From contig NC_135260.1 in NCBI RefSeq assembly GCF_964204865.1, positions 1,736,001-1,800,000 on the forward strand: a DNA stretch of 64,000 nucleotides, written 5' to 3'. Shown piece after piece: positions 3,022 to 47,922 of this stretch. The stretch is from Styela clava (taxonomy: Eukaryota > Chordata > Ascidiacea > Stolidobranchia > Styelidae). How positions within the stretch are numbered: position 1 is the first letter of the stretch; the number at the start of each line of letters is the position of its first letter. The translations under genes were made by a program, and so were the position numbers. The notes under the pieces are model-generated. The model saw nothing but the letters and a program-made list of their open reading frames with translations. It did no database searches and had not been told where the DNA came from.

Positions 3022-3045
3022 TTTTGATTTTGATTTTGATTTTGA
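3022..3045 (+). repeat. TTTTGA short tandem repeat, four copies
   Basis: Four perfect TTTTGA units replace the TATATAACTTTTGA found here in other spacers. This expansion accounts for the 1339-base interval between 5S copies 2 and 3. It looks like slippage from the single TTTTGA of the normal unit. Confidence 0.9.
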
Positions 3046-20841: not shown

Positions 20842-21529
20842 TTTCGCTTTTATCAAAAATAAAAGGAATGCTGTCTGAACAAAACATAATTTAAAATGAA
20901 TATGTTATAAAATATTTCAGATTGTCGAGGACTGAATAATAAATAACTAACAGGGGCTAAACGCAACTTTACGAATAGTCACTGAGACCCGTCATCGATA
21001 TTTCGAATGCGTCTTAATAGATATAGGCCTACTATATATGGCAGAATAATCGGTGCTACTATGGAGTGAGTTAGGATATGAGAAATCGAGATAAGACGAC
21101 TTAATTAGTCATATGACGGATCACGCCAATCGCCCGGTTATCAGTCAAGGCCAGTTATTTCATTTCGGAAGCAAGCACTTAATGGTTGCGGAAGCCGTAA
21201 CTTACCTGCGGTAACATTGACTACCTTACGACGACGAAGGGTTCTGAAAACTATCCCTTAATGGAATTCGAACCCACGCAGAGTAATCAGAGGTGTGGTA
21301 ACGAGCGTATATCTGACACTTAGCACGATGCGCCACACGGTTGAGCACGAGTTTTACCATAGCTTGAAATCTACCTATATCTAGTATTACATAGTGAGAT
21401 CTACGTCAAATCAGTACTTTAGCGCAGGTTCAAAGCCTTCATTTTGCATCCCTAGTAGATATCTCATTAAATTTAGTTAGACTGACCAATGACATTAAAC
21501 AACATGATGCGCAACTCCGGCATTTTTGG

Positions 21530-21574
21530 CCGAAGATCGTATCCGATAGCACGCTCCAATGCACATACTTGGCG
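21530..21574 (-). repeat. Left inner arm of the outer transposon, copy 1
   Basis: Read on the minus strand, this block (core ATGTGCATTGGAGCGT) resembles the right arm at 25120-25162 (core ATGTGAATTGGAGCGT), about three quarters identical over 43 bases. The inverted repeat is therefore longer than the 32-base tips. In one frame the two arms also agree as protein: RQVCALERAIGYDLRP against REICELERIMKYNLSP. Confidence 0.6.
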
Positions 21575-22235
21575 AGACGAAAACGAGCGGATGTGTGCTG
21601 CTTTCAAGGCATAGCACGAATAGTGTTCGCGCCTGCTTTGACAGTTGTTGTCGATTTTAATGATATTTTGGAAAGTTGAGGTAAAAAGAAATCGGAAAAA
21701 GGTAAGGTAAATACTATTGTTGTATATCACACCCGGGCATCGCACTGTTAAGTACGTGTGGAAAGCCAGCCTTTGTCAAATACTACAAAGTTATTAATTC
21801 AGTACGGTACGTAGTTGCCCATTTGCCGAAATTGCATATTTACTTACCCCTTATGGTTTCAAATAGTTCATGCACCTCCGTTTAGATTTTTTTAATCAGT
21901 GAGGATATGTACTCATTGCTGATTGCTGTTCATTGTAACATACTATTGCACATTCACTTTTATTTGCGTATTGAATCAAAGTGTTCACAAGTTCACCTAA
22001 CATTTCACTCATACCGGTCTATATTGTATAGTCTGATCTCTCAAGTATTTGGAGCCACCAATGCTTGTAATTTTCTGACTAAACCCTTTTATTAGCTGGT
22101 TTATATACCAAATTCAGTAAAACATTTTTTACATAAAACATGAGATATTGGATTTATTAGCTTTTCCATTCTAAATCACATAGACTGCTTTATTTATTCT
22201 TAACGAAAATTAATAAATCTCCTCTCTTTCTTTAG

Positions 22236-22497
22236 ATGTGAAAGTTGTGGAGCAACCTGTCTAAGCATTGTGAGACTCCTGCAGCACAAGAGGCAATAGC
22301 AAAAATAGTAAGTATATCAATCAAGAAATTAAGCCGACATAAAGCAAAATTTTCAACTATTCGCCTAATCTCAATTTCCCATTATTTATTCACAGGACAA
22401 CTATACCAGAGGGGAGATATCAGAAATCTGGCGACATATCAGTGACAGTGTGATTCCAAGAAATATAATTAGAGTACTCCATGAATGTTTGCAATAG
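22236..22497 (+). pseudogene. Exon-like fragments A and B in transposon copy 1
   Basis: A 72-base segment (22236-22307) lies between an acceptor CTTTAG and a donor GTAAGTAT. After a short A+T-rich intron, TTCACAG at 22395 opens a second segment read in the same phase to TAG at 22495-22497. Translations contain LSKHCETPAAQEAIAKI, then DNYTRGEISEIWRHISDS. The first segment has an in-frame TGA after its ATG here, so the gene is not intact. I do not recognise the family. It may be a captured host fragment or remnant transposase, or chance. Confidence 0.35.
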
Positions 22498-22833
22498 AAA
22501 AACAACCTATGGAAGCATGCAAAGACATTCGAGATTCGACCATCCGGTAGATTTGTGTATGGCCCCCACATCCTGCAGGGCTTGAGGAAAATAACTAAAA
22601 ATTCCAAAGCGTAGGATTGCATAGGCGGTCTTCTTTGTAAAAAGGCACAAAACACGCCAGACATACTTAAAACAGCTTTGGAAAATGAGGATTACGGGTA
22701 ACTCACTGCACCAGTGTTATATTTGGTTCATCAACTTTTGGTAGTATTATAGAAGAAATTCCGGAAGGGGTATAATCATCATTCATGATAAAATACTGTT
22801 TATATATATATTTTGGACAACTTCAATCTAGAC

Positions 22834-24003
22834 CAGGGATGTCAAACTCGTGGCCCCAGAGAACTTCCAGTGCGGCCCTAGAACGCTTAACAATAATTGT
22901 AATAGTATTTTGGAAGTTTTTTTTTATCTAAATGTAATATATTTTTCAAACCTTTAAAAGTGAAATTGATTATTCACACAGAAAACAATTTACTGAAAGT
23001 AGTTTTGGAATATTATTTTTTTTTGTCCCCATTTTGACCCAATTAAGAATACACAACAAGCTAGCCAAAGAATACTTGAATAAAACACTTGAGTGATTAA
23101 ATTAAACGCAAAGTACATGAAGAAGGTGGCATTTTCGAAGAAAATGGGAGTTGCAATATTTCTGCATTTCACAAAATTCTGAAGCACATTGTTTAATTTG
23201 TCATATTTCCATCAATACAATGAAAAAACACAATAAGCTCAGCAGTCAATATGACAAATTCGAAGACCAACTTCGAACAGAAAATTTCCATGTGTTTGTA
23301 TATTAATATAATTATACAACGACTTAGTTACTAAAAAGCAATATCAATAATAATTCAAGCAATCCTATGCCACGCAATGTGGTGCGAAATGTCTTGTCGA
23401 AAAAATCTGTCATTTGTTTTTTTACTGATCTATACATGCAGTGAGTAACTTTTTTGCATTACTGGAATTAATTAAACATTCGCAAAGATCCAGATTAACC
23501 CATGATCATGTGACCTCGTTAGTTAGACTATAAAATCATTTCAGCCTGGCCTTAGTATGCTGGTGACACAAAAAAGATGCCAAACGTCAGAACAAATGTA
23601 ACTAAAAAAACATTGAGTATATACTGTAGTATTTTTGTTAATTTTAGGTTCATATATTTAGATTAAGTCATTTTTAGTGTATGTATTATTTTTTCCTTAT
23701 CCAAAGCTTGTTCAAAAATGATTTTGATGGTTGTACATGGAATTTTATGATTTTTTATAATAAATACAGTAACTTGCAAATGTTGCAATAATAGTGGAAT
23801 GCAAATATTAATATGTAATTGCATTTGAAATTGAAGAAAATAATAAAACTTAAACTGTTTAGTTGCATCACAATATAGGTCACAAACTAAAACTATCTTA
23901 AAAATATCTTTCAAGTATACATTATCAAAAACTGTTTGCGGCCCTTTTTACAATTTCCAAAATGCAATGCGGCTCTCGAAAACCCATGAGTTTGACACCA
24001 CTG
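22834..24003. mobile_element. Nested hAT-like non-autonomous element, copy 1 (1170 bases)
   Basis: Left end CAGGGATGTCAAACTCGTGG and right end, read inward, CAGTGGTGTCAAACTCATGG are inverted repeats matching at 17 of 20 bases. This is the CAG...TGTCAAACTC form common in animal hAT elements. GCGGCCC motifs lie near both ends. The flanks ATCTAGAC (22826-22833) and ATCTATTC (24004-24011) are a degraded 8-base duplication, the length usual for hAT. The interior is A+T-rich with no transposase reading frame. It holds two perfect inverted repeats near 23195-23277. Confidence 0.85.
23195..23277. repeat. Double hairpin inside the hAT-like element
   Basis: AATTTGTCATATT (23195-23207) pairs perfectly with AATATGACAAATT (23248-23260). 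Directly after it, TTCGAAG and CTTCGAA form a seven-base stem with a five-base loop (23259-23277). Both are kept in copy 2 near 45239-45318. They could be subterminal transposase-binding structure or part of an older insertion. Confidence 0.6.
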
Positions 24004-24355
24004 ATCTATTCTAGAGGATTCAAGCATAGCTTTGGGAAAGAATATCACTTCAATTAAATTGAAAAAAAACTCGCTATATTAAATACAAAATCGTTGCTAT
24101 CATAAAGGTAAACCAATTCAGCCACTCGAAATATATTGGCCTTCACAAAGCAATGGAGGCAAAATCGAGAGTTCATTAGCAATGAACATTTGTTCTTTTC
24201 GTTGTCTTGAACTTTTCATACTCCACAGCCCCTGTTCATTTTTTTAATTTTAATTACCATGTGATGCTCATACTTATCTTTAACTTGTATTTTCTGTCAT
24301 GATGTATTATCTCAATGTGTCAAACTATTAATTAGTGTGCATATTTTGCTTCCAG

Positions 24356-25082
24356 ATGACATAAATGTATTGTCTTGTTTATTACCTCAGCTTGGAGTAT
24401 TGACAAGAAAAAGGTGCCAGTAAATTAGGTAAAAAAATTTTCAACTCTTTGTTATAATCAGAATTCACAATTAATAGGAATTATAAACAGCCAACAATCA
24501 ATGAGAATTATATGCGAAATCCCTCAGAATAAAGTTGTCTAATATCGGAGGAAGGCAAAATATATAGGTAGTTTCCATTCACACAAGCATTTCAAGAAGA
24601 CTTGCTCGAGCCAAACTAAATGAGCATCGTCAAGTGATCGGTAAGGCTGCAAGTTGAATTCAGCCCTGGAACCTCCTGCATAGAAGATAATATTAATTAG
24701 TGGGCTATGAGCTAAATTCCTAAATTTAGACACAAACATATCTACGATTCATTATGTACCAGCAATGTTACCTACGATAAACTGAATATGTAATATGTCT
24801 AATAAATTATAGGTGCAAACTTTGTGTTATAGAATTGTATCACAGCATCGTTAATAAGAGAAGTAAAAACAGTTTTGTATGACACCCTCTTTAAATGAAA
24901 ATGCAATGTTTAAGTGCAAACATCAAAATTACTAACTTTGAACTTTGTCATTATCTGCAAAATGTTCCACACAAATCTTCTTAGATAACTTCTTCTTCAC
25001 AAACTTCTTAGATATAGAGATTATTTTCTTTTGTTACAGGCGCAAAAAGGCAGGTACTACACGTAAAAAAGCCGCCGAGTAG
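24356..25082 (+). pseudogene. Exon-like fragments C and E in transposon copy 1
   Basis: A 64-base segment (24356-24419) follows TTTTGCTTCCAG and ends at a GTAAAT donor. A segment from 25040 follows TTTTGTTACAG and reaches TAG at 25080-25082. Joined at these sites the phase fits, giving a basic end: ...GVLTRKRC-Q-RKKAGTTRKKAAE. Both segments stay open in copy 2. No family recognised. The sequence between holds an A+T-rich stretch and another possible short open segment at 24568-24640. Confidence 0.35.
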
Positions 25083-25119
25083 CAAGAGCGAGCGGAAAAC
25101 GGTCGCGAAAGGCGACGAG

Positions 25120-25162
25120 AAATATGTGAATTGGAGCGTATCATGAAATACAATCTTTCGCC
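25120..25162 (+). repeat. Right inner arm of the outer transposon, copy 1
   Basis: Counterpart of 21530-21574. In copy 2 the matching arm, near 47258-47300, reads ATGTGCATTGGAGCGT and is even closer to the left arm. The frame that aligns to the left arm continues upstream through a TAG (25080-25082) into the exon-like end RKKAGTTRKKAAE. Confidence 0.6.
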
Positions 25163-25787
25163 TGCAGTCTTATGGAGTGACGTCAGAGTTGCCTATCATG
25201 TTGTTTAATGTCATTGGACTGACTGACTATTAACGTTGATACATTTTTATTGAACCGGACTTAATCGAAAAATTAAACTCTCGCCAAGTTACGGGCGATC
25301 ACCGAAGTGCCACGCGCTTGTGAGAGTTTATATATAACTTTTGATACTGTGTGAGTGCACGTAACCTAGCTTTGAGCACATATAATAAAAAACAAGCTTA
25401 AAAGAAGGGCAACTTTCATATATACTGTCGAACTATCTGGGTTATGTGCAATACAATGGGCATCCGCTTATCAAAAAGCTTTGTCAATAACACGTCAGGC
25501 CTCAATAACAAACAAGCGAGTTATATCAGCGACTCGATGCTTGCGTTAAGTCATACACCAGAGATAAAATACCTATGAGGAAAAACATGCAATCAATAAA
25601 TTAACGCATGTAATCAATAATAACAAAATTTGACACTGGTAGAAAATGTCGGCGGTAAGCCACTGAGCGAAACAGCGACTGCCTGAGTTTCATTGTTTGT
25701 GACTCTACAAACGAAACAGTTGCGCTTCGCTTCTCTCTCATTAGGCGTTGCCTAAATATAAATAACCGAATATGTCTCGTCGATATC

Positions 25788-25906
25788 GCCTACGACCATA
25801 CCACGTTGAATACACCCGATCTCGTTCGATCTCGGAAGTCAAGCAACGTCGGGCTCGGTTAGTACTTGCATGGGTGACCGGCTGGGAATACCGGGTGCCG
25901 TAGGCT
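25788..25906 (+). rRNA. 5S ribosomal RNA, copy 17 (C53 variant)
   Basis: First gene after mobile element copy 1. It has a private T53C in the A box (GAAGTCAAGC) and is followed by a gamma spacer. Confidence 0.96.
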
Positions 25907-27110
25907 TTTCGCTTTTATCAAAAATAAAAGGAATGCTGTCTGAACAAAACATAATTTAAAATGAATATGTTATAAAATATTTCAGATTGTCGAGGACTGA
26001 ATAATAACTAACAGGGGCGAAACGCAACTTTACGAATAGTCACTGAGACCCGTCATCGATATTTCGAATGCGGTTAATAGGTATAGGCCTGCTATATATG
26101 GCAGAATAATCGGTGCTACTATGGAGTGAGTTAGGATATGAGAAATCGAGATAAGACGACTTAATTAATCATATGACGGATCACGCCAATCGCCCGGTTA
26201 TCAGTCAAGGCCAGTTATTTCATTTCGGAAGCAAGCACTTAATGGTAGCGGAAGCCGTAACTTACCTGCGGTAACATGGACTACCTTACGACGACGAAGG
26301 GTTCTGAAAACTATTCCTTAATGGAATTCGAACCCACGCAGAGTAATCAGAGGTATGGTAACGAGCGTATATCTGACACTTAGCACGATGCGCCACACGG
26401 TTGAGCACGAGTTTTACCATAGCTTGAAATCTACCTATATCTAGTATTACATAGTGAGATCTACGTCAATTCAGTACTTTAGCGCAGGTTCAAAGCCTTC
26501 ATTTTGCATCCCTAGTAGATATCTCATTAAATTTAGTTAGACTGACTGACTATTAACGTTGATACATTTTTATTGAACCGGACTTAATCGAAAAATTAAA
26601 CTCTCGCCAAGTTACGGGCGATCACCGAAGTGCCACGCGCTTGTGAGAGTTTATATATAACTTTTGATACTGTGTGAGTGCACGTAACCTAGCTTTGAGC
26701 ACATATAATAAAAAACAAGCTTATAAGAAGGGCAACTTTCATATATACTGTCGAACTATCTGGGTTATGTGCAATACAATGGGCATCCGCTTATCAAAAA
26801 GCTTTGTCAATAACACGTCAGGCCTCCATAACAAACAAGCGAGTTATATCAGCGACTCGATGCTTGCGTTAAGCCATACACCAGAGATAAAATACCTATG
26901 AGGAAAAACATGCAATCAATAAATTAACGCATGTAATCAATAATAACAAAATTTGACACTGGTAGAAAGTGTCGGCGGTAAGCCATTGAGCGAAACAGCG
27001 ACTGCCTGAGTTTCATTGTTTGTGACTCTACAAACGAAACAGTTGCGCTTCGCTTCTCTCTCATTAGGCGTTGCCTAAATATAAATAACCGAATATGTCT
27101 CGTCGATATC

Positions 27111-27229
27111 GCCTACGACCATACCACGTTGAATACACCCGATCTCGTTCGATCTCGGAAGTTAAGCAACGTCGGGCTCGGTTAGTACTTGCATGGGTGA
27201 CCGGCTGGGAATACCGGGTGCCGTAGGCT
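27111..27229 (+). rRNA. 5S ribosomal RNA, copy 18
   Basis: Majority sequence, beta-prime spacer. First unit of a five-unit duplication. Its spacer shares CAGAGATGTGG only with the spacer after copy 23. Confidence 0.97.
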
Positions 27230-28437
27230 TTTCGCTTTTATCAAAAATAAAAGGAATGCTGTCTGAACAAAACATAATTTAAAATGAATATGTTATAAAA
27301 TATTTCAGATTGTCGAGGACTGAATAATAAATAACTAACAGGGGCGAAACGCAACTTTACGAATAGTCACTGAGACCCGTCATCGATATTTCGAATGCGT
27401 CCTAATAGATATAGGCCTACTATATATGGCAGAATAATCGGTGCTACTATGGAGTGAGTTGGATATGAGAAATCGAGATAAGACGACTTAATTAGTCATA
27501 TGACGGATCACGCCAATCGCCCGGTTATCAGTCAAGGCCAGTTATTTCATTTCGGAAGCAAGCACTTAATGGTAGCGGAAGCCGTAACTTACCTGCGGTA
27601 ACATTGACTACCTTACGACGACGAAGGGTTCTGAAAACTATCCCTTAATGGAATTCGAACCCACGCAGAGTAATCAGAGATGTGGTAACGAGCGTATATC
27701 TGACACTTAGCACGATGCGCCACACGGTTGAGCACGAGTTTTACCATAGCTTGAAATCTACCTATATCTAGTATTACATAGTGAGATCTACGTCAAATCA
27801 GTACTTTAGCGCAGGTTCAAAGCCTTCATTTTGCATCCCTAGTAGATATCTCATTAAATTTAGTTAGACTGACTGACTATTAACGTTGATACATTTTTAT
27901 TGAACCGGACTTAATCGAAAAATTAAACTCTCGCCAAGTTACGGGCGATCACCGAAGTGCCACGCGCTTGTGAGAGTTTATATATAACTTTTGATACTGT
28001 GTGAGTGCACGTAACCTAGCTTTGAGCACATATAATAAAAAACAAGCTTATAAGAAGGGCAACTTTCATATATACTGTCGAACTATCTGGGTTATGTGCA
28101 ATACAATGGGCATCCGCTTATCAAAAAGCTTTGTCAATAACACGTCAGGCCTCAATAACAAACAAGCGAGTTATATCAGGGACTCGATGCTTGCGTTAGG
28201 CCATACACCAGAGATAAAATACCTATGAGGAAAAACATGCAATCAATAAATTAACGCATGTAATCAATAATAACAAAATTTGACACTGGTAGAAAATGTC
28301 GGCGGTAAGCCACTGAGCGAAACAGCGACTGCCTGAGTTTCATTGTTTGTGACTGTACAAACGAAACAGTTGCGCTTCGCTTCTCTCTCATTAGGCGTTG
28401 CCTAAATATAAATAACCGAATATGTCTCGTCGATATC

Positions 28438-28556
28438 GCCTACGACCATACCACGTTGAATACACTCGATCTCGTTCGATCTCGGAAGTTAGGCAACGTC
28501 GGGCTCGGTTAGTACTTGCATGGGTGACCGGCTGGGAATACCGGGTGCCGTAGGCT
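28438..28556 (+). rRNA. 5S ribosomal RNA, copy 19 (T29, G55 variant)
   Basis: Alpha-type gene. Counterpart of copy 24 in the 6631-base duplication. Confidence 0.96.
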
Positions 28557-29763
28557 TTTCGCTTTTATCAAAAATAAAAGGAATGCTGTCTTAACAAAAC
28601 ATAATTTAAAATGAATATGTTATAAAATATTTCAGATTGTCGAGGACTGAATAATAACTAACAGGGGCGAAACGCAACTTTACGAATAGTCACTGAGACC
28701 CGTCATCGATATTTCGAATGCGTCTTAATAGATATAGGCCTACTATATATGGCAGAATAATCGGTGCTACTATGGAGTGAGTTAGGATATGGGAAATCGA
28801 GATAAGACGACTTAATTAATCATATGACGGATCACGGCCAATCGCCCGGTTATCAGTCAAGGCCAGTTATTTCATTTCGGAAGCAAGCACTTAATGGTAG
28901 CGGAAGCCGTAACTTACCTGCGGTAACATGGACTACCTTACGACGACGAAGGTTTTCTGAAAACTATCCCTTAATGGAATTCGAACCCACGCAGAGTAAT
29001 CAGAGGTGTGGTAACGAGCGTATATCTGACACTTAGCACGATGCGCCACACGGTTGAGCACGAGTTTTACCATAGCTTGAAATCTACCTATATCTAGTAT
29101 TACATAGTGAGATCTACGTCAATTCAGTACTTTAGCGCAGGTTCAAAGCCTTCATTTTGCATCCCTAGTAGATATCTCATTAAATTTAGTTAGACTGACT
29201 GACTATTAACGTTGATACATTTTTATTGAACCGGACTTAATCGAAAAATTAAACTCTCGCCAAGTTACGGGCGATCACCGAAGTGCCACGCGCTTGTGAG
29301 AGTTTATATATAACTTTTGATACTGTGTGAGTGCACGTAACCTAGCTTTGAGCACATATAATAAAAAACAAGCTTATAAGAAGGGCAACTTTCATATATA
29401 CTGTCGAACTATCTGGGTTATGTGCAATACAATGGGCATCCGCTTATCAAAAAGCTTTGTCAATAACACGTCAGGCCTCAATAACAAACAAGCGAGTTAT
29501 ATCAGCGACTCGATGCTTGCGTTAAGCCATACACCAGAGATAAAATACCTATGAGGAAAAACATGCAATCAATAAATTAACGCATGTAATCAATAATAAC
29601 AAAATTTGACACTGGTAGAAAATGTCGGCGGTAAGCCACTGAGCGAAACAGCGACTGCCTGAGTTTCATTGTTTGTGACTCTACAAACGAAACAGTTGCG
29701 CTTCGCTTCTCTCTCATTAGGCGTTGCCTAAATATAAATAACCGAATATGTCTCGTCGATATC

Positions 29764-29882
29764 GCCTACGACCATACCACGTTGAATACACCCGATCTCG
29801 TTCGATCTCGGAAGTTAAGCAACGTCGGGCTCGGTTAGTACTTGCATGGGTGACCGGCTGGGAATACCGGGTGCCGTAGGCT
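29764..29882 (+). rRNA. 5S ribosomal RNA, copy 20
   Basis: Majority sequence, beta spacer. The following spacer has the private AATAATAAACAAG shared with the spacer after copy 25. Confidence 0.97.
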
Positions 29883-31091
29883 TTTCGCTTTTATCAAAAA
29901 TAAAAGGAATGCTGTCTGAACAAAACATAATTTAAAATGAATATGTTATAAAATATTTCAGATTGTCGAGGACTGAATAATAAATAACTAACAGGGGCGA
30001 AACGCAACTTTACGAATAGTCACTGAGACCCGTCATCGATATTTCGAATGCGTCTTAATAGATATAGGCCTACTATATATGGCAGAATAATCGGTGCTAC
30101 TATGGAGTGAGTTAGGATATGAGAAATCGAGATAAGACGACTTAATTAGTCATATGACGGATCACGCCAATCGCCCGGTTATCAGTCAAGGCCAGTTATT
30201 TCATTTCGGAAGCAAGCACTTAATGGTAGCGGAAGCCGTAACTTACCTGCGGTAACATTGACTACCTTACGACGACGAAGGGTTCTGAAAACTATCCCTT
30301 AATGGAATTCGAACCCACGCAGAGTAATCAGAGGTGTGGTAACGAGCGTATATCTGACACTTAGCACGATGCGCCACACGGTTGAGCACGAGTTTTACCA
30401 TAGCTTGAAATCTACCTATATCTAGTATTACATAGTGAGATCTACGTCAAATCAGTACTTTAGCGCAGGTTCAAAGCCTTCATTTTGCATCCCTAGTAGA
30501 TATCTCATTAAATTTAGTTAGACTGACTGACTATTAACGTTGATACATTTTTATTGAACCGGACTTAATCGAAAAATTAAACTCTCGCCAAGTTACGGGC
30601 GATCACCGAAGTGCCACGCGCTTGTGAGAGTTTATATATAACTTTTGATACTGTGTGAGTGCACGTAACCTAGCTTTGAGCACATATAATAAAAAACAAG
30701 CTTAAAAGAAGGGCAACTTTCATATATACTGTCGAACTATCTGGGTTATGTGCAATACAATGGGCATCCGCTTATCAAAAAGCTTTGTCAATAACACGTC
30801 AGGCCTCAATAATAAACAAGCGAGTTATATCAGCGACTCGATGCTTGCGTTAAGCCATACACCAGAGATAAAATACCTATGAGGAAAAACATGCAATCAA
30901 TAAATTAACGCATGTAATCAATAATAACAAAATTTGACACTGGTAGAAAATGTCGGCGGTAAGCCACTGAGCGAAACAGCGACTGCCTGAGTTTCATTGT
31001 TTGTGACTCTACAAACGAAACAGTTGCGCTTCGCTTCTCTCTCATTAGGCGTTGCCTAAATATAAATAACCGAATATGTCTCGTCGATATC

Positions 31092-31210
31092 GCCTACGAC
31101 CATACCACGTTGAATACACCCGATCTCGTTCGATCTCGGAAGTTAAGCAACGTCGGGCTCGGTTAGTACTTGCATGGGTGACCGGCTGGGAATACCGGGT
31201 GCCGTAGGCT
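31092..31210 (+). rRNA. 5S ribosomal RNA, copy 21
   Basis: Majority sequence with a gamma-like spacer (GTCTTAATAGGTATAGG). Duplicate partner of copy 26 but without the 6-base insertion found there. Confidence 0.97.
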
Positions 31211-32415
31211 TTTCGCTTTTATCAAAAATAAAAGGAATGCTGTCTGAACAAAACATAATTTAAAATGAATATGTTATAAAATATTTCAGATTGTCGAGGA
31301 CTGAATAATAACTAACAGGGGCGAAACGCAACTTTACGAATAGTCACTGAGACCCGTCATCGATATTTCGAATGCGTCTTAATAGGTATAGGCCTGCTAT
31401 ATATGGCAGAATAATCGGTGCTACTATGGAGTGAGTTAGGATATGAGAAATCGAGATAAGACGACTTAATTAATCATATGACGGATCACGCCAATCGCCC
31501 GGTTATCAGTCAAGGCCAGTTATTTCATTTCGGAAGCAAGCACTTAATGGTAGCGGAAGCCGTAACTTACCTGCGGTAACATGGACTACCTTACGACGAC
31601 GAAGGGTTCTGAAAACTATCCCTTAATGGAATTCGAACCCACGCAGAGTAATCAGAGGTGTGGTAACGAGCGTATATCTGACACTTAGCACGATGCGCCA
31701 CACGGTTGAGCACGAGTTTTACCATAGCTTGAAATCTACCTATATCTAGTATTACATAGTGAGATCTACGTCAATTCAGTACTTTAGCGCAGGTTCAAAG
31801 CCTTCATTTTGCATCCCTAGTAGATATCTTATTAAATTTAGTTAGAGTGACTGACTATTAACGTTGATACATTTTTATTGAACCGGACTTAATCGAAAAA
31901 TTAAACTCTCGCCAAGTTACGGGCGATCACCGAAGTGCCACGCGCTTGTGAGAGTTTATATATAACTTTTGATACTGTGTGAGTGCACGTAACCTAGCTT
32001 TGAGCACATATAATAAAAAACAAGCTTATAAGAAGGGCAACTTTCATATATACTGTCGAACTATCTGGGTTATGTGCAATACAATGGGCATCCGCTTATC
32101 AAAAAGCTTTGTCAATAACACGTCAGGCCTCAATAACAAACAAGCGAGTTATATCAGGGACTCGATGCTTGCGTTAGGCCATACACCAGAGATAAAATAC
32201 CTATGAGGAAAAACATGCAATCAATAAATTAACGCATGTAATCAATAATAACAAAATTTGACACTGGTAGAAAATGTCGGCGGTAAGCCACTGAGCGAAA
32301 CAGCGACTGCCTGAGTTTCATTGTTTGTGACTGTACAAACGAAACAGTTGCGCTTCGCTTCTCTCTCATTAGGCGTTGCCTAAATATAAATAACCGAATA
32401 TGTCTCGTCGATATC

Positions 32416-32534
32416 GCCTACGACCATACCACGTTGAATACACCCGATCTCGTTCGATCTCGGAAGTTAGGCAACGTCGGGCTCGGTTAGTACTTGCATG
32501 GGTGACCGGCTGGGAATACCGGGTGCCGTAGGCT
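32416..32534 (+). rRNA. 5S ribosomal RNA, copy 22 (G55 variant)
   Basis: Alpha-type gene with G55 but C29, the same combination as its duplicate, copy 27. Confidence 0.96.
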
Positions 32535-33741: not shown

Positions 33742-33860
33742 GCCTACGACCATACCACGTTGAATACACCCGATCTCGTTCGATCTCGGAAGTTAAGCAA
33801 CGTCGGGCTCGGTTAGTACTTGCATGGGTGACCGGCTGGGAATACCGGGTGCCGTAGGCT
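33742..33860 (+). rRNA. 5S ribosomal RNA, copy 23
   Basis: Majority sequence, beta-prime spacer. Start of the second half of the five-unit duplication. Private ATCGTTGCTAC downstream. Confidence 0.97.
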
Positions 33861-35068: not shown

Positions 35069-35187
35069 GCCTACGACCATACCACGTTGAATACACTCGA
35101 TCTCGTTCGATCTCGGAAGTTAGGCAACGTCGGGCTCGGTTAGTACTTGCATGGGTGACCGGCTGGGAATACCGGGTGCCGTAGGCT
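35069..35187 (+). rRNA. 5S ribosomal RNA, copy 24 (T29, G55 variant)
   Basis: Alpha-type gene, duplicate of copy 19. Confidence 0.96.
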
Positions 35188-36394: not shown

Positions 36395-36513
36395 GCCTAC
36401 GACCATACCACGTTGAATACACCCGATCTCGTTCGATCTCGGAAGTTAAGCAACGTCGGGCTCGGTTAGTACTTGCATGGGTGACCGGCTGGGAATACCG
36501 GGTGCCGTAGGCT
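36395..36513 (+). rRNA. 5S ribosomal RNA, copy 25
   Basis: Majority sequence, beta spacer, duplicate of copy 20. The downstream spacer has private ATATGACAAATCACG. Confidence 0.97.
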
Positions 36514-37722
36514 TTTCGCTTTTATCAAAAATAAAAGGAATGCTGTCTGAACAAAACATAATTTAAAATGAATATGTTATAAAATATTTCAGATTGTCGA
36601 GGACTGAATAATAAATAACTAACAGGGGCGAAACGCAACTTTACGAATAGTCACTGAGACCCGTCATCGATATTTCGAATGCGTCTTAATAGATATAGGC
36701 CTACTATATATGGCAGAATAATCGGTGCTACTATGGAGTGAGTTAGGATATGAGAAATCGAGATAAGACGACTTAATTAGTCATATGACAAATCACGCCA
36801 ATCGCCCGGTTATCAGTCAAGGCCAGTTATTTCATTTCGGAAGCAAGCACTTAATGGTAGCGGAAGCCGTAACTTACCTGCGGTAACATTGACTACCTTA
36901 CGACGACGAAGGGTTCTGAAAACTATCCCTTAATGGAATTCGAACCCACGCAGAGTAATCAGAGGTGTGGTAACGAGCGTATATCTGACACTTAGCACGA
37001 TGCGCCACACGGTTGAGCACGAGTTTTACCATAGCTTGAAATCTACCTATATCTAGTATTACATAGTGAGATCTACGTCAAATCAGTACTTTAGCGCAGG
37101 TTCAAAGCCTTCATTTTGCATCCCTAGTAGATATCTCATTAAATTTAGTTAGACTGACTGACTATTAACGTTGATACATTTTTATTGAATCGGACTTAAT
37201 CTAAAAATTAAACTCTCGCCAAGTTACGGGCGATCACCGAAGTGCCACGCGCTTGTGAGAGTTTATATATAACTTTTGATACTGTGTGAGTGCACGTAAC
37301 CTAGCTTTGAGCACATATAATAAAAAACAAGCTTAAAAGAAGGGCAACTTTCATATATACTGTCGAACTATCTGGGTTATGTGCAATACAATGGGCATCC
37401 GCTTATCAAAAAGCTTTGTCAATAACACGTCAGGCCTCAATAATAAACAAGCGAGTTATATCAGCGACTCGATGCTTGCGTTAAGCCATACACCAGAGAT
37501 AAAATACCTATGAGGAAAAACATGCAATCAATAAATTAACGCATGTAATCAATAATAACAAAATTTGACACTGGTAGAAAATGTCGGCGGTAAGCCACTG
37601 AGCGAAACAGCGACTGCCTGAGTTTCATTGTTTGTGACTCTACAAACGAAACAGTTGCGCTTCGCTTCTCTCTCATTAGGCGTTGCCTAAATATAAATAA
37701 CCGAATATGTCTCGTCGATATC

Positions 37723-37847
37723 GCCTACGACCATACCGGTACCACGTTGAATACACCCGATCTCGTTCGATCTCGGAAGTTAAGCAACGTCGGGCTCGGT
37801 TAGTACTTGCATGGGTGACCGGCTGGGAATACCGGGTGCCGTAGGCT
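37723..37847 (+). pseudogene. 5S rRNA, copy 26, with 6-base insertion (probable pseudogene)
   Basis: Otherwise majority sequence, but GGTACC is inserted after nt 15 (ATACCGGTACCACG instead of ATACCACG). This lengthens the gene to 124 bases before the T-run. The insertion sits at the loop A/helix II boundary and adds 6 bases between transcription start and internal promoter. The RNA would have a bulge or misfolded helix II, so incorporation into ribosomes is doubtful. The duplicate partner, copy 21, lacks it, so it arose after the five-unit duplication. An assembly artefact is possible but unlikely for a clean 6-base palindrome. Confidence 0.9.
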
Positions 37848-39052
37848 TTTCGCTTTTATCAAAAATAAAAGGAATGCTGTCTGAACAAAACATAATTTAA
37901 AATGAATATGTTATAAAATATTTCAGATTGTCGAGGACTGAATAATAACTAACAGGGGCGAAACGCAACTTTACGAATAGTCACTGAGACCCGTCATCGA
38001 TATTTCGAATGCGTCTTAATAGGTATAGGCCTGCTATATATGGCAGAATAATCGGTGCTACTATGGAGTGAGTTAGGATATGAGAAATCGAGATAAGACG
38101 ACTTAATTAATCATATGACGGATCACGCCAATCGCCCGGTTATCAGTCAAGGCCAGTTATTTCATTTCGGAAGCAAGCACTTAATGGTAGCGGAAGCCGT
38201 AACTTACCTGCGGTAACATGGACTACCTTACGACGACGAAGGGTTCTGAAAACTATCCCTTAATGGAATTCGAACCCACGCAGAGTAATCAGAGGTGTGG
38301 TAACGAGCGTATATCTGACACTTAGCACGATGCGCCACACGGTTGAGCACGAGTTTTACCATAGCTTGAAATCTACCTATATCTAGTATTACATAGTGAG
38401 ATCTACGTCAATTCAGTACTTTAGCGCAGGTTCAAAGCCTTCATTTTGCATCCCTAGTAGATATCTTATTAAATTTAGTTAGAGTGACTGACTATTAACG
38501 TTGATACATTTTTATTGAACCGGACTTAATCGAAAAATTAAACTCTCGCCAAGTTACGGGCGATCACCGAAGTGCCACGCGCTTGTGAGAGTTTATATAT
38601 AACTTTTGATACTGTGTGAGTGCACGTAACCTAGCTTTGAGCACATATAATAAAAAACAAGCTTATAAGAAGGGCAACTTTCATATATACTGTCGAACTA
38701 TCTGGGTTATGTGCAATACAATGGGCATCCGCTTATCAAAAAGCTTTGTCAATAACACGTCAGGCCTCAATAACAAACAAGCGAGTTATATCAGGGACTC
38801 GATGCTTGCGTTAGGCCATACACCAGAGATAAAATACCTATGAGGAAAAACATGCAATCAATAAATTAACGCATGTAATCAATAATAACAAAATTTGACA
38901 CTGGTAGAAAATGTCGGCGGTAAGCCACTGAGCGAAACAGCGACTGCCTGAGTTTCATTGTTTGTGACTGTACAAACGAAACAGTTGCGCTTCGCTTCTC
39001 TCTCATTAGGCGTTGCCTAAATATAAATAACCGAATATGTCTCGTCGATATC

Positions 39053-39171
39053 GCCTACGACCATACCACGTTGAATACACCCGATCTCGTTCGATCTCGG
39101 AAGTTAGGCAACGTCGGGCTCGGTTAGTACTTGCATGGGTGACCGGCTGGGAATACCGGGTGCCGTAGGCT
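39053..39171 (+). rRNA. 5S ribosomal RNA, copy 27 (G55 variant)
   Basis: Alpha-type gene with G55 and C29, matching its duplicate, copy 22. Confidence 0.96.
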
Positions 39172-40378
39172 TTTCGCTTTTGTCAAAAATAAAAGGAATG
39201 CTGTCTTAACAAAACATAATTTAAAATGAATATGTTATAAAATATTTCAGATTGTCGAGGACTGAATAATAACTAACAGGGGCGAAACGCAACTTTACGA
39301 ATAGTCACTGAGACCCGTCATCGATATTTCGAATGCGTCTTAATAGATATAGGCCTACTATATATGGCAGAATAATCGGTGCTACTATGGAGTGAGTTAG
39401 GATATGGGAAATCGAGATAAGACGACTTAATTAATCATATGACGGATCACGGCCAATCGCCCGGTTATCAGTCAAGGCCAGTTATTTCATTTCGGAAGCA
39501 AGCACTTAATGGTAGCGGAAGCCGTAACTTACCTGCGGTAACATGGACTACCTTACGACGACGAAGGTTTTCTGAAAACTATCCCTTAATGGAATTCGAA
39601 CCCACGCAGAGTAATCAGAGGTGTGGTAACGAGCGTATATCTGACACTTAGCACGATGCGCCACACGGTTGAGCACGAGTTTTACCATAGCTTGAAATCT
39701 ACCTATATCTAGTATTACATAGTGAGATCTACGTCAATTCAGTACTTTAGCGCAGGTTCAAAGCCTTCATTTTGCATCCCTAGTAGATATCTCATTAAAT
39801 TTAGTTAGACTGACTGACTATTAACGTTGATACATTTTTATTGAACCGGACTTAATCGAAAAATTAAACTCTCGCCAAGTTACGGGCGATCACCGAAGTG
39901 CCACGCGCTTGTGAGAGTTTATATATAACTTTTGATACTGTGTGAGTGCACGTAACCTAGCTTTGAGCACATATAATAAAAAACAAGCTTATAAGAAGGG
40001 CAACTTTCATATATACTGTCGAACTATCTGGGTTATGTGCAATACAATGGGCATCCGCTTATCAAAAAGCTTTGTCAATAACACGTCAGGCCTCAATAAC
40101 AAACAAGCGAGTTATATCAGCGACTCGATGCTTACGTTAAGCCATACACCAGAGATAAAATACCTATGAGGAAAAACATGCAATCAATAAATTAACGCAT
40201 GTAATCAATAATAACAAAATTTGACACTGGTAGAAAATGTCGGCGGTAAGCCACTGAGCGAAACAGCGACTGCCTGAGTTTCATTGTTTGTGACTCTACA
40301 AACGAAACAGTTGCGCTTCGCTTCTCTCTCATTAAGCGTTGCCTAAATATAAATAACCGAATATGTCTCGTCGATATC

Positions 40379-40497
40379 GCCTACGACCATACCACGTTGA
40401 ATACACCCGATCTCGTTCGATCTCGGAAGTTAAGCAACGTCGGGCTCGGTTAGTACTTGCATGGGTGACCGGCTGGGAATACCGGGTGCCGTAGGCT
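40379..40497 (+). rRNA. 5S ribosomal RNA, copy 28
   Basis: Majority sequence, gamma spacer. The upstream hairpin has ATTAAGCG instead of ATTAGGCG, which breaks one pair. Confidence 0.97.
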
Positions 40498-41701
40498 TTT
40501 CGCTTTTATCAAAAATAAAAGGAATGCTGTCTGAACAAAACATAATTTAAAATGAATATGTTATAAAATATTTCAGATTGTCGAGGACTGAATAATAACT
40601 AACAGGGGCGAAACGCAACTTTACGAATAGTCACTGAGACCCGTCATCGATATTTCGAATGCGGTTAATAGGTATAGGCCTGCTATATATGGCAGAATAA
40701 TCGGTGCTACTATGGAGTGAGTTAGGATATGAGAAATCGAGATAAGACGACTTAATTAATCATATGACGGATCACGCCAATCGCCCGGTTATCAGTCAAG
40801 GCCAGTTATTTCATTTCGGAAGCAAGCACTTAATGGTAGCGGAAGCCGTAACTTACCTGCGGTAACATGGACTACCTCACGACGACGAAGGGTTCTGAAA
40901 ACTATCCCTTAATGGAATTCGAACCCACGCAGAGTAATCAGAGGTGTGGTAACGAGCGTATATCTGACACTTAGCACGATGCGCCACACGGTTGAGCACG
41001 AGTTTTACCATAGCTTGAAATCTACCTATATCTAGTATTACATAGTGAGATCTACGTCAATTCAGTACTTTAGCGCAGGTTCAAAGCCTTCATTTTGCAT
41101 CCCTAGTAGATATCTCATTAAATTTAGTTAGACTGACTGACTATTAACGTTGATACATTTTTATTGAACCGGACTTAATCGAAAAATTAAACTCTCGCCA
41201 AGTTACGGGCGATCACCGAAGTGCCACGCGCTTGTGAGAGTTTATATATAACTTTTGATACTGTGTGAGTGCACGTAACCTAGCTTTGAGCACATATAAT
41301 AAAAAACAAGCTTATAAGAAGGGCAACTTTCATATATACTGTCGAACTATCTGGGTTATGTGCAATACAATGGGCATCCGCTTATCAAAAAGCTTTGTCA
41401 ATAACACGTCAGGCCTCAATAACAAACAAGCGAGTTATATCAGCGACTCGATGCTTGCGTTAAGCCATACACCAGAGATAAAATACCTATGAGGAAAAAC
41501 ATGCAATCAATAAATTAACGCATGTAATCAATAATAACAAAATTTGACACTGGTAGAAAGTGTCGGCGGTAAGCCATTGAGCGAAACAGCGACTGCCTGA
41601 GTTTCATTGTTTGTGACTCTACAAACGAAACAGTTGCGCTTCGCTTCTCTCTCATTAGGCGTTGCCTAAATATAAATAACCGAATATGTCTCGTCGATAT
41701 C

Positions 41702-41820
41702 GCCTACGACCATACCACGTTGAATACACCCGATCTCGTTCGATCTCGGAAGTTAAGCAACGTCGGGCTCGGTTAGTACTTGCATGGGTGACCGGCTGGG
41801 AATACCGGGTGCCGTAGGCT
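41702..41820 (+). rRNA. 5S ribosomal RNA, copy 29
   Basis: Majority sequence, beta-prime spacer. Confidence 0.97.
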
Positions 41821-43028
41821 TTTCGCTTTTATCAAAAATAAAAGGAATGCTGTCTGAACAAAACATAATTTAAAATGAATATGTTATAAAATATTTCAGA
41901 TTGTCGAGGACTGAATAATAAATAACTAACAGGGGCGAAACGCAACTTTACGAATAGTCACTGAGACCCGTCATCGATATTTCGAATGCGTCCTAATAGA
42001 TATAGGCCTACTATATATGGCAGAATAATCGGTGCTACTATGGAGTGAGTTGGATATGAGAAATCGAGATAAGACGACTTAATTAGTCATATGACGGATC
42101 ACGCCAATCGCCCGGTTATCAGTCAAGGCCAGTTATTTCATTTCGGAAGCAAGCACTTAATGGTAGCGGAAGCCGTAACTTACCTGCGGTAACATTGACT
42201 ACCTTACGACGACGAAGGGTTCTGAAAACTATCCCTTAATGGAATTCGAACCCACGCAGAGTAATCAGAGGTGTGGTAACGAGCGTATATCTGACACTTA
42301 GCACGATGCGCCACACGGTTGAGCACGAGTTTTACCATAGCTTGAAATCTACCTATATCTAGTATTACATAGTGAGATCTACGTCAAATCAGTACTTTAG
42401 CGCAGGTTCAAAGCCTTCATTTTGCATCCCTAGTAGATATCTCATTAAATTTAGTTAGACTGACTGACTATTAACGTTGATACATTTTTATTGAACCGGA
42501 CTTAATCGAAAAATTAAACTCTCGCCAAGTTACGGGCGATCACCGAAGTGCCACGCGCTTGTGAGAGTTTATATATAACTTTTGATACTGTGTGAGTGCA
42601 CGTAACCTAGCTTTGAGCACATATAATAAAAAACAAGCTTATAAGAAGGGCAACTTTCATATATACTGTCGAACTATCTGGGTTATGTGCAATACAATGG
42701 GCATCCGCTTATCAAAAAACTTTGTCAATAACTCGTCAGACCTCAATAACAAACAAGCGAGTTATATCAGCGACTCGATGCTTGCGTTAAGCCATACACC
42801 AGAGATAAAATACCTATGAGGAAAAACATGCAATCAATAAATTAACGCATGTAATCAATAATAACAAAATTTGACACTGGTAGAAAATGTCGGCGGTAAG
42901 CCACTGAGCGAAACAGCGACTGCCTGAGTTTCATTGTTTGTGACTCTACAAACGAAACAGTTGCGCTTCGCTTCTCTCTCATTAGGCGTTGCCTAAATAT
43001 AAATAACCGAATATGTCTCGTCGATATC

Positions 43029-43147
43029 GCCTACGACCATACCACGTTGAATACACTCGATCTCGTTCGATCTCGGAAGTTAAGCAACGTCGGGCTCGGT
43101 TAGTACTTGCATGGGTGACCGGCTGGGAATACCGGGTGCCGTAGGCT
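43029..43147 (+). rRNA. 5S ribosomal RNA, copy 30 (T29 variant)
   Basis: T29 with A55, the only T29 gene without G55. Its alpha spacer is interrupted 761 bases after the gene start by mobile element copy 2. Confidence 0.96.
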
Positions 43148-44526
43148 TTTCGCTTTTATCAAAAATAAAAGGAATGCTGTCTTAACAAAACATAATTTAA
43201 AATGAATATGTTATAAAATATTTCAGATTGTCGAGGACTGAATAATAACTAACAGGGGCGAAACGCAACTTTACGAATAGTCACTGAGACCCGTCATCGA
43301 TATTTCGAATGCGTCTTAATAGATATAGGCCTACTATATATGGCAGAATAATCGGTGCTACTATGGAGTGAGTTAGGATATGGGAAATCGAGATAAGACG
43401 ACTTAATTAATCATATGACGGATCACGGCCAATCGCCCGGTTATCAGTCAAGGCCAGTTATTTCATTTCGGAAGCAAGCACTTAATGGTAGCGGAAGCCG
43501 TAACTTACCTGCGGTAACATGGACTACCTTACGACGACGAAGGTTTTCTGAAAACTATCCCTTAATGGAATTCGAACCCACGCAGAGTAATCAGAGGTGT
43601 GGTAACGAGCGTATATCTGACACTTAGCACGATGCGCCACACGGTTGAGCACGAGTTTCACCATAGCTTGAAATCTACCTATATCTAGTATTACATAGTG
43701 AGATCTACGTCAATTCAGTACTTTAGCGCAGGTTCAAAGCCTTCATTTTGCATCCCTAGTAGATATCTCATTAAATTTAGTTAGACTGACCAATGACATT
43801 AAACAACATGATGCGCAACTCCGGCATTTTTGGCCGAAGATCGTATCTGATAGCACGCTCCAATGCACATACTTGACGAGACGAAAACGAGCGGATGCGT
43901 GCTGCTTTCAAGGCATAGCACGAATGGTGTTCGTGCCTGCTTTGACAGTTGTTGTCGATTTTAATGATATTTTGGAAGGTTGAGGTAAAAAGAAATTGGA
44001 AAAAGGTAAGGTAAATACCATTGTTGTATATCACACCCGGGCATCGCACTGTTAAGTACATGTGGGAAAACCAGCTTTTGTCAAATTCTACGAAGTTATT
44101 AATTCAGTACGGTACGTAGTTGCCCATTTGCCGAAATTGCATATTTAGTTACCCCTTATGGTTTCAAATAGTTCATGCACCTTCATTTAGATTTTTTTTT
44201 AATCAGTGAGGATATATACTCATCGCTGTAACTTACTATTGCTCATTCACTTTTATTTGCGTATTGAATCAAAGGGTTAACAAGTTCACCTAACATTCAC
44301 TCATACCGGACTATATTGTATAGTCTGATCTCTCAAGTATTTGGAGCCACGAATGCTTGTAATTTTCTGACTAAACCCTTTATTAATTGGTTTATATACC
44401 AAATTCAGTAAAACATTTTTTACATAAAACATGAGATATTGGATTTATTATCTTTTTCATTCTAAATCATATAGACTGCTTTATTTATTCTTAACGAAAA
44501 TTAATAAATCTCCTCTCTTCCTTCAG

Positions 44527-44598
44527 ATGTGGAAGTTGTGGACAAACCTGTCTAAGCATTGTGAGACTCCTGTAGCACAAGAAGCAACAGCAAAAATA
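44527..44598 (+). pseudogene. Exon-like fragment A in transposon copy 2
   Basis: Counterpart of 22236-22307 with TGG where copy 1 has TGA, so it is open (starts MWKLWTNLSKHCET). Splice-like CTTCAG and GTAAGTAT are kept. Most of fragment B is missing because of the 250-base difference between copies; TCACAG ends at 44686 and is followed by a short, different tail. Confidence 0.33.
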
Positions 44599-44869
44599 GT
44601 AAGTATATCAATCAAAAAATTAGGCCGACATAAAGCAAAACTTTCAACTATTCGTCTAACCTCAATTTCATATTATTTATTCACAGGACAAAACACGTCA
44701 GACATACTTAAAACAGCTTTGGAAAATGAGGATTACGGGTCACTCACTACACCTGTGTTATATTTAGTTCATCAACTTTTGGTAGTACTATAGAAGAAAT
44801 TCAGGAAAGGGTATAGTCATGATACACGATAAAATACTGTTATATATTTTAGCCAACTTTAATCTAGAC

Positions 44870-46026
44870 CAGGGATGTCAAACTCGCGGCCCCAGAGAAC
44901 TTCCAGTGCGGCCCTCGAACGCCTAACAATAATTCTAATAGTATTTTGGAAGTTTTTTTTATCTAAATGTAATAGATTTTTCAAACCTTTTAAAGTGAAA
45001 TTGATTATTCACACAGAAAACAATTTACTGAAAGTAGTTTTGGAAAATCAATTTTTTTTGTTCACATTTTGACCCAATTAAGAATACACATCAAGCTAGC
45101 AAAAGAATACTTGAATTAAACACTTGAGTGAATAAATTAAACGCAAGTACATGAAGAAGGTGGCATTTTCGAAGAAAATAGGAGTTGCAATATTTCTGCA
45201 TTTCAAAATATTCTGAAGCAAAGAAGAATTCTGTTTAATTTGTCATATTTCCATCAGTACAATGAAAAAACACAATAAGCTCAGCAGTCAATATGACAAA
45301 TTCGAAGAGCAACTTCGAACAGAAAGTTTCCATGTGTTTGTATATTAATATAATTATACAACGACTTAGTTATTAAAAATCAATAATAATTCAAGCAATC
45401 CTATGCCACGCAATGTGGCGCGAAATGTCTTGTCGAAAAAATCTGTCATTTGTTTTTTTACTGATCTATACATGAAATGATAAAAGTAACTTTTTTTGCA
45501 TTACTGGAATTATTTAAGCATTCGCAAAGATCCAGATTAACCCATGATCATGTGACCTCGTGAGTTAGAGTTGGTACTATAAAATCATTTCAGCCTGGCC
45601 TTAGTATGCTGGTGACACATAAAAGATGCCAAACGTCAGGACAAATGTAATTAAAAAAACATTGAGGTTATACTGTAGTATTTTTGTCAATTTTAGGTCC
45701 ATATATTTCGATTAAGTGTATGTATTATTCTTTCCTTATCCAAAGCTTGTTCAAAAATGATTTTGATGGTTGTAAATAGAATTTTATGATCTTTTGTAAA
45801 AAATACAGTAACTTGCAATAATAGTGGAATGCAAATATTAATATGTAATTGCATTTGAAATTGAAGAAAATAATAAAACTTAATTCAACTGTTTAGTTGC
45901 ATCACAATGTATGTCACAAACTGAAACTATCTTTCAAGTATACATTATCAAAAACTGTTTGCGGCCCTTTTTACAATTTTCAAAATGCAATGCGGCTCTC
46001 GAAAACCCATGTGTTTGACACCACTA
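44870..46026. mobile_element. Nested hAT-like non-autonomous element, copy 2 (1157 bases)
   Basis: Same element at the same place within transposon copy 2. The right end has decayed from CACTG to CACTA. Flanks ATCTAGAC (44862-44869) and ATCTACTC (46027-46034) agree at 6 of 8 bases. Since both outer copies contain it, it inserted before the outer element was duplicated. Confidence 0.84.
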
Positions 46027-46380
46027 ATCTACTCTACACGATTCAAGCATTGCTTTGGGAAATAATATCACTTTAAATAAATTGAAAAAAATCTCGCTAT
46101 ATTAAATACAAAATCGTTGCTATCATAAAGGTAAACCAATTCACCCACTCGGAATATATTGGCCCTCACAAAGCAATGGGGGCAAAATTGGGAGTTTATG
46201 AGCTATGAACTTTTGTTCTTTTCTTTGTCTTGAACTTTCCATACTCCACAGCCCCTATTATTATTTTTTTGATTTTAATTACCATGTGATGGTCATATAC
46301 ATCTTTAACTTGTATTTTCTGTCATGGTGTATTATCTCAATGTGTCAAACTTTTAATTAGTGTGCATATTTTGCTTCCAG

Positions 46381-47217
46381 ATGACATAAATGTATTGTCT
46401 TGTTTATTACCTCATCTTCGAGTATTGACAAGGAAAAGGTGCCAGTAAATTACGTAAAAATTTTTTTAACTCTTTGTTATAATCAGAATTCACAATTAAT
46501 AGAAATTATAAACAGCCAACAATCAATGAGAATTATATGCGAAATCCCTCAGAATAAATTTTCTCCTAAAATCGGAGGAAGGCAAAACATATAGGTAGTT
46601 CCCATTCACACAAGTCTTTCAAGAGGACTTGCTCGAGCCAAACTAAATGAGCATTGTCAGGTGATCGGTAAGGCTGAAAGTTGAATTTAGCCCTGCAACC
46701 TCCTGCATCGAAGATAATATTAATTAGTGAGCTATGAGCTAAATTTAGACACAAACCTATCTACGGGGCATTATGTACCAGAAATGTTACCTACGATTAG
46801 CTGAATATGTAATATGTCTAAGAAATTCACCTACTAAAACAAGCAGTTCGATAGGTGCAAACATTGTGTTATGGAATTGTATCACAGCACCGTAAAAAGA
46901 AGTAAAAACAGTTTTGCTGTTTTGTATGCTGTTTTGTATGCTCTTTAAATGAAATTTCAATGTTCAAGCGCAAACATTAATATTATTAACTTTGAACTTT
47001 GTCATTATCTGCAAAATGTTCCAAACATATCTTTACGCTATCGCGTTTGTAATCTTCTCTGATAAAAAAAAACGTTTATGATGTGCAGAATTACTCTTCG
47101 CAGCTTGTCTGCAATTCCAGCTTTCCAAGTGAGCAAAACTTCTTAGATATAAGGATTATTTTCTTTTGTTACAGGCGCAAAAAGGCAGGTACTACACGTA
47201 AAGAAAACGCCGAGTAG
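46381..47217 (+). pseudogene. Exon-like fragments C and E in transposon copy 2
   Basis: Same acceptor and donor positions as in copy 1 (exon C 46381-46444; exon E from 47075 to TAG at 47215-47217). Ends RKKAGTTRKENAE. Differences from copy 1 include several amino-acid changes, so there is no clear sign of protein-level selection. Confidence 0.33.
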
Positions 47218-47922
47218 CAAAAGCGAGCGGAAAACGGTCGCGAAAGGCGACGAGAAATATGTGCATTGGAGCGTATCATGAAATACAATCTTTTGCCTGT
47301 AGCCTTATGGAGTGACGTCAGAGTTGCCTATCATGTTGTTTAATGTCATTGGACTGACTGACTATTAACGTTGATACATTTTTATTGAACCGGACTTAAT
47401 CGAAAAATTAAACTCTCGCCAAGTTACGGGCGATCACCGAAGTGCCACGCGCTTGTGAGAGTTTATATATAACTTTTGATACTGTGTGAGTGCACGTAAC
47501 CTAGCTTTGAGCACATATAATAAAAAACAAGCTTATAAGAAGGGCAACTTTCATATATACTGTCGAACTATCTGGGTTATGTGCAATACAATGGGCATCC
47601 GCTTATCAAAAAGCTTTGTCAATAACACGTCAGGCCTCAATAACAAACAAGCGAGTTATATCAGCGACTCGATGCTTGCGTTAAGCCATACACCAGAGAT
47701 AAAATACCTATGAGGAAAAACATGCAATCAATAAATTAACGCATGTAATCAATAATAACAAAATTTGACACTGGTAGAAAATGTCGGCGGTAAGCCACTG
47801 AGCGAAACAGCGACTGCCTGAGTTTCATTGTTAGTGACTCTACAAACGAAACAGTTGCGCTTCGCTTCTCTCTCATTAGGCGTTGCCTAAATATAAATAA
47901 CCGAATATGTCTCGTCGATATC

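Follow-up and report, generated by a model that had tools for sequence, protein, structure and literature searches.

A non-autonomous P-superfamily transposon family found repeatedly at one base of the 5S rDNA spacer in Styela clava

Two copies of one transposon in a 5S rDNA array

The stretch of Styela clava DNA analysed here, 64,000 nucleotides in length (contig NC_135260.1, positions 1,736,001 to 1,800,000; hereafter the window), is a section of a 5S ribosomal DNA (rDNA) array with 43 5S genes in units of about 1,326 bp, and two of these units are interrupted by copies of one transposon. Copy 1 (W1; 3,730 bp, window positions 21487..25216) and copy 2 (W2; 3,561 bp, 43791..47351) both lie on the plus strand, and break the 16th and the 30th complete unit of the window at the identical place, unit position 758 of 1,328, which falls into the spacer about 638 bp beyond the end of the 5S gene. 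Each is flanked by a 7-bp target site duplication (TSD), GACTGAC, found at 21480..21486 and 25217..25223 around copy 1, and at 43784..43790 and 47352..47358 around copy 2. The window contains four exact terminal-repeat ends, at 21486, 25217, 43790 and 47352, where 0.02 would be expected by chance; the ends and the unit position thus agree with the first-pass annotation of this DNA, which had placed two transposon copies at the same spacer base. The terminal inverted repeats match perfectly over about 22 bp, and imperfect similarity continues to about 100 bp (in copy 1, 21487..21585 on the plus and 25118..25216 on the minus strand, both with approximate inner limits). Overall, the two copies differ at 208 of 3,412 aligned bases.

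The empty counterpart of the occupied site can be seen in intact units, for example as GACTGAC at 30521..30527 (plus strand) in the unit starting at 29764. In its wider form, TTA-GACTGAC-TGA, it has at least 168 exact copies in the 376.6 Mb of genome searched, and the 100 empty sites among the matches listed are all located on C14, the contig hosting the array, between positions 1,611,018 and 1,793,985.

Element ends, target site duplication and family size

The window taken alone is compatible with a duplication of anywhere between 5 and 7 bp, because ACTGA, which had initially been read as a 5-bp TSD, is flanked by G and C in the target. The ends of other family members show it to be 7 bp. 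Of the 949 exact family ends in the genome, 529 read CCAATGACATTAAACAACAT, and in the other 420 the first C is replaced by A, G or T; the outermost C/G is therefore part of the target, and the element starts with CAATGACATT, not with CCAATGACATT. An exact 7-bp TSD was present in 36 of the 41 rows with both ends and an 8-bp TSD in two, while the three rows without any TSD correspond to two loci, L017 and L028, at which copies lie side by side. Halving the number of exact ends gives a family of about 475 copies. At L024, L028 and L096 (C18:4785600), adjoining family members, back to back or side by side, are separated by just one 7-bp target, and L081 was apparently inserted within the terminal repeat of another family copy.

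Independent insertions at the same base

Counting exact junctions only, four copies in the genome have the 5S left junction. Two further copies besides W1 and W2 occupy the same base in the opposite orientation, outside the window, at C14:1648980 and C14:1696727 (L033 and L034). Had copy 1 or copy 2 been duplicated in register or copied by conversion, the resulting copies would not be in the opposite orientation, which supports separate insertion. L033 and L034, in turn, differ from each other at 8 of 3,503 element positions and at 6 of 2,674 flank positions, and since differences are similarly few in the element and around it, this pair represents one insertion duplicated together with its surroundings.

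Across window positions 823-63968, most of the aligned units belong to four types (A, P, C and D) that recur in order, forming a higher-order repeat within the array, and some units look recombinant between types. Types were assigned by eye for 36 of the 40 intact window units, with four recombinant-looking units excluded, and a comparison of eight P with 11 A units gave the columns diagnostic for P versus A. When the element is disregarded, the unit around copy 1 shows the P state at 14 of 14 such columns, and the one around copy 2 agrees with type A at 13 of 14, with the deviating column inside the 5S gene; the columns nearest to the insertion point are at -70 and +197. The two copies therefore do have flanks of different spacer subtype, as had been proposed from the sequence of the window.

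A quick maximum-likelihood tree was built for 30 copies, four from the array and 26 dispersed, including seven dispersed copies (L081-L087) chosen as close matches to the array copies; L022 was omitted from both trees that were made. Each array lineage falls into a set with 100% support in the SH-like approximate likelihood ratio test (SH-aLRT): copy 1 with L014 and L086, copy 2 with L081-L083, and L033/L034 with L084/L085; within the second set, the pairing of copy 2 with L081 received 92%. All three sets unite an array lineage with dispersed copies from other contigs; the nearest relative of copy 2 is on contig C19. The approximately unbiased (AU) test presumes groups named in advance, and ours follow array membership, though an earlier tree had already been seen; it rejected all four one-clade groupings (W1+W2, p 2e-5; W1+L033+L034, 4e-6; W2+L033+L034, 1e-75; all four copies, 1e-7). 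It follows from these rejections, and from the ties of each lineage to other contigs, that at least three independent insertions took place at one base, in two orientations.

Alternatively, unequal crossing-over or gene conversion could have carried a single insertion to further units of the array, its flanks being later homogenised to the local type. Position and duplication are common to all four copies, copies 1 and 2 have the same orientation, some units resemble exchanges between types, and L033/L034 do exhibit duplication with flanks. Nevertheless, we regard such spreading as very improbable as the source of all four copies: copies 1 and 2 are each closer to relatives on other contigs than to one another, all four one-clade groupings are rejected, and the L033/L034 pair is oppositely oriented. 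Moreover, the outer 58 and 49 bp are identical in copies 1 and 2 despite a difference of 6.1% over the element (chance about 0.001), which is to be expected if the two diverged while still mobile. The first-pass annotation had favoured separate insertions at a preferred base, and orientation, unit type and phylogeny bear it out; its alternative, flank exchange following one insertion, fails for copies 1 and 2, and only in the form of duplication with flanks does it fit L033/L034.

Target motif and choice of base

The target preference of the family was learned from 29 non-5S insertion sites on contig C1, namely those of the 32 C1 rows that have an exact 7-bp TSD; excluded were L011 and L075/076 (8 bp) and L017 (no TSD), and copies with altered ends, single ends, and a 7-kb pair on C1 later read as L088 were also left out. 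These sites yield a 13-bp palindrome, TNNGTNNNACNNA, with T at -3 in 22 sites, G1 in 16, T2 in 24, A6 in 25, C7 in 19 and A10 in 23. It replaced an earlier motif based on copies with CCAATG at both ends, a choice that allowed only G and C at the edges. A resemblance between the terminal repeat and the target, of the kind known from Dada, was also considered and dropped, as shuffled repeats equalled it in 2,675 of 5,000 trials.

Scored with the 29-site motif, the used 5S base reaches 9.4-9.5 bits, compared with a leave-one-out median of 4.2 for real sites. It ranks second of the 1,328 unit positions, and does so in each of the 36 units scored, that is, those of the 40 in which the site has a recognised form. 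The model gives three insertions a probability of 0.16-0.28 of coinciding at any one base, as opposed to (1/1,328) squared if all positions were equal. The reuse of one base is therefore probably due in the main to the preferred palindrome that happens to lie there, and the motif accounts for most of the coincidence, not for all of it.

A coding relative and the superfamily assignment

When fragments of the element itself were searched against Pfam and the Protein Data Bank (PDB), nothing scored above a curated cut-off, so that the superfamily assignment comes through a single coding relative, L092, on contig C18. Six collinear segments of it align with copy 1, at 67-90% identity; it has no nested hAT-like element, and retains about 3.07 kb that the family has lost, with the breakpoint of this internal deletion at about 24655 in copy 1. 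Its minus-strand transposase carries PF21787, PF21788 and PF21789 above cut-offs, with the RNase H and GTP-binding domains of P elements, and among solved structures it matches that of the Drosophila P transposase (6p5a) with an E of 2e-16. The right end of L092 equals that of the family at 17 of 19 bases; next come GTCAGAC and then, back to back with L092, a second family member. No N-terminal THAP domain was detected in the two minus-strand open reading frames (ORFs) scanned in L092, where the transposase is in pieces and the left end was not found.

Remnants of the same transposase are retained in minus-strand frames of both window copies, at 24542..24748 in copy 1 (28 residues aligned) and at 46569..46760 in copy 2 (33 residues), scoring 113 and 115, where shuffled sequences reached at most 54 and 47. 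Taken together, the P transposase of L092, its near-identical right end, and the remnant in the window copies identify the latter as a non-autonomous P-superfamily transposon, and not as Dada. The traits of the superfamily found here are the transposase type (in L092), terminal repeats with 7- or 8-bp duplications, and a palindromic GT...AC target.

On the strand opposite to its P transposase, L092 has a 290-aa ORF (146-1015, plus strand), which is homologous to a decayed frame with two in-frame stops in copy 1 (22396..22698, plus strand); the last 46 residues of the latter align to it. For this ORF, Pfam yielded nothing at E 0.01 and the PDB nothing better than 0.7; it may represent a second gene in a P-type element. 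When one family frame was searched throughout the genome, the 150 scored places, out of 984 first-look candidates, had stops inside. PF21787 matches number 44 in the genome, several of them in long open frames. At L090 (2514-5015, plus strand), an 834-aa open frame has Tnp_P_element, RNase H, GBD and THAP9_C domains, making it a candidate for an intact P-type transposase; the family ends were not found in the 7 kb examined around it. Three other loci were weighed as autonomous partners, L022, L088 and L089, of which L022 and L088 look like nested other elements, their long ORFs being, as we judge by eye, hAT-like and reverse-transcriptase-like, respectively.

Each window copy also contains a nested element on the plus strand, at 22834..24003 in copy 1 and at 44870..46026 in copy 2, the latter inherited along with the family. 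The one in copy 1 begins with CAGGGATGTCAAACTCG and has an imperfect 8-bp duplication (ATCTAGAC/ATCTATTC); we presume it to be a hAT from its ends and duplication length as judged by eye. A weak match within it to the Spin-doc zinc finger (E 0.009) is below the curated cut-off.

IS481EU was dropped from consideration, its duplications being given as about 4, 15 or 25 bp (PMC10045372). Prokaryote and viral sequence collections contributed one match each, both without the remainder of the terminal repeat.

Other features of the array

A different transposon, 2.9 kb long, was found in the 5S array at L036 (C14:1726740-1732320), positions 251-3133. It has the ends TAGGGCCCGACCGATA and an 8-bp duplication with one difference (GTTTTGTG/GTTATGTG), lies at unit position of about 982, and looks like a hAT. 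The 6.2-kb insertion at L035 (C14:1686610-1694120; about 834-7019), at unit position of about 261, starts with a long T run, and is possibly a retrotransposon in reverse orientation. A tRNA-like stretch was noticed by eye on the minus strand of the 5S spacer at window positions 21270-21350, and in the matching place in other units; ARAGORN made no tRNA calls on the window.

Repeated insertion and a possible attraction of the array

The following course of events would account for most of these observations. Both window elements belong to one non-autonomous, cut-and-paste family of the P superfamily, about 3.5-3.8 kb in length, which would be moved in trans by a P-type transposase; we infer the acting enzyme, any present activity, and the role of the motif as the main cause of the coincidence. 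The transposase would join the ends to target strands staggered by 7 bp, occasionally 8, with a preference for the 13-bp palindrome, of which the 5S spacer offers a strong match repeated over its many empty copies. Three lineages have thus reached the same base by separate insertions, in one orientation or the other, and the L033/L034 insertion was later duplicated with its flanks during growth of the array. We consider this account, a palindrome-preferring, non-autonomous P-superfamily family separately inserted at least three times at one 5S base, highly probable. The family makes unusually clear repeated use of one base.

Several observations weigh against this account. The top-scoring site of the unit is not the one used, but overlaps it 4 bp upstream (GTTAGAC), and has a predicted share of 0.61-0.65; a search for left junctions at that site, allowing up to three mismatches, found none occupied. 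For the used base, a share of about 0.15 is predicted, and the model probability of all three insertions being there is about 0.004. Three independent insertions also exceed the motif-weighted expectation for the array, given below. The lack of junctions found at the better site, the low model probability and the array excess together indicate that a simple additive motif is incomplete. The 5S units around L033 and L034 have no close match to any of the four unit types of the window. With regard to superfamily, a search of 1.8 kb for the left end of L092, allowing up to six mismatches, did not detect it, and the remnant has another short match, to the other frame of L092, that stayed below its shuffled controls (34 versus 45, and 31 versus 43).

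The excess itself was estimated over the surveyed array stretch of about 183 kb (C14:1,611,018 to 1,793,985), considering insertions at the used base only. By length alone, 0.23 insertions are expected, while three are observed (P 0.002). Weighting by motif raises the expectation to 0.74-0.83 (P 0.04-0.05), a figure that could be somewhat lower, as motif weights ranged over 2.6-3.6 across calculations and 3.2-3.6 were used. One may suppose that the 5S array attracts the element beyond its sequence, for instance through open chromatin or a tether to RNA polymerase III factors, the palindrome then picking the base; both expectations are below the three insertions counted, and the better-scoring neighbouring site was not found occupied. 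We consider such attraction unlikely. Most of the excess is gone after motif weighting, selection against insertions elsewhere would presumably produce the same pattern, and exact 5S left junctions number only four. The idea of a 5S-spacer specialist, put forward in the first-pass annotation, is not supported: those four copies compare with 949 exact ends genome-wide, and the search for ends that it had proposed uncovered dispersed copies at many different 7-bp targets, the outcome that it had itself named as refuting. The array excess is weak, and open to survival bias. A more elaborate variant, in which a P-superfamily family has acquired a 5S bias, the motif choosing the base and 5S chromatin the locus, and also has a second, opposite-strand gene beside the P transposase, appears doubtful to us.

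We nevertheless consider separate insertion directed mainly by the palindrome to be informative in two respects. The array amounts to a natural replicate, in which three lineages entered the same base of 1,328, and whose near-identical targets allow the strength of attraction by a short palindrome to be measured; it also serves as a side-by-side control, since one pair of copies arose by duplication and the others by separate insertion. More generally, a motif that happens to occur in many copies can be responsible for most of what looks like "targeting" of RNA genes.

Comparison with known systems

Dada transposons are described as having no terminal inverted repeats, producing 6-7-bp duplications and inserting inside RNA genes (PMC3706591), and Dada-5S families exist in fish (PMC8869645). 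A 7-bp TSD in a multicopy RNA-gene locus fits this description. Nevertheless, there is next to no chance that our element is a Dada: it has about 22 bp of perfect terminal repeats where Dada has none, it is located in the spacer and not within an RNA gene, and its coding relative carries P-transposase domains. It is these three features that exclude Dada. The initial view that the element is not Dada therefore stands, although its argument from a 5-bp duplication does not, since 7 bp is within the Dada range. Pokey, a piggyBac element of Daphnia, is found both in the rRNA array and elsewhere (PMC3849761, PMC4912750), and in this respect resembles our family, but it belongs to a different superfamily and occupies 28S genes (PMC3706591). 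Among the matches listed in searches of the open-access literature, we found no report of a terminal-repeat transposon in 5S spacers.

Drosophila P elements and zebrafish Pdre2 generate 8-bp duplications (PMC10983969, PMC1562414, PMC7776569), and a palindromic target motif for Drosophila P as well as a P-type transposase with a GTP-binding insertion have been reported (PMC7776569, PMC10983969, PMC4168063). Our family shares with Drosophila P and Pdre2/THAP9 the P-type transposase domains, short terminal repeats and a palindromic target, and differs from them in its 7-bp duplication. The latter finds its counterpart in Galileo, a P-superfamily element of Drosophila, which makes 7-bp, and a few 8-bp, duplications with the consensus GTANTAC inside a longer palindrome (PMC4168063; also PMC2775673), and has unusually long terminal repeats (PMC3688188). 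The duplication lengths and the GT...AC edges within a longer palindromic target are the same in our family, whereas GTANTAC itself is not followed, the three central bases being almost unconstrained, with A at position 3 in three of 29 sites and T at position 5 in three of 29, and the terminal repeats extend imperfectly for about 100 bp. Because Galileo-type long terminal repeats are absent, we do not file the family as Galileo, but describe it as P-type, with a 7-bp palindromic target similar to Galileo's.

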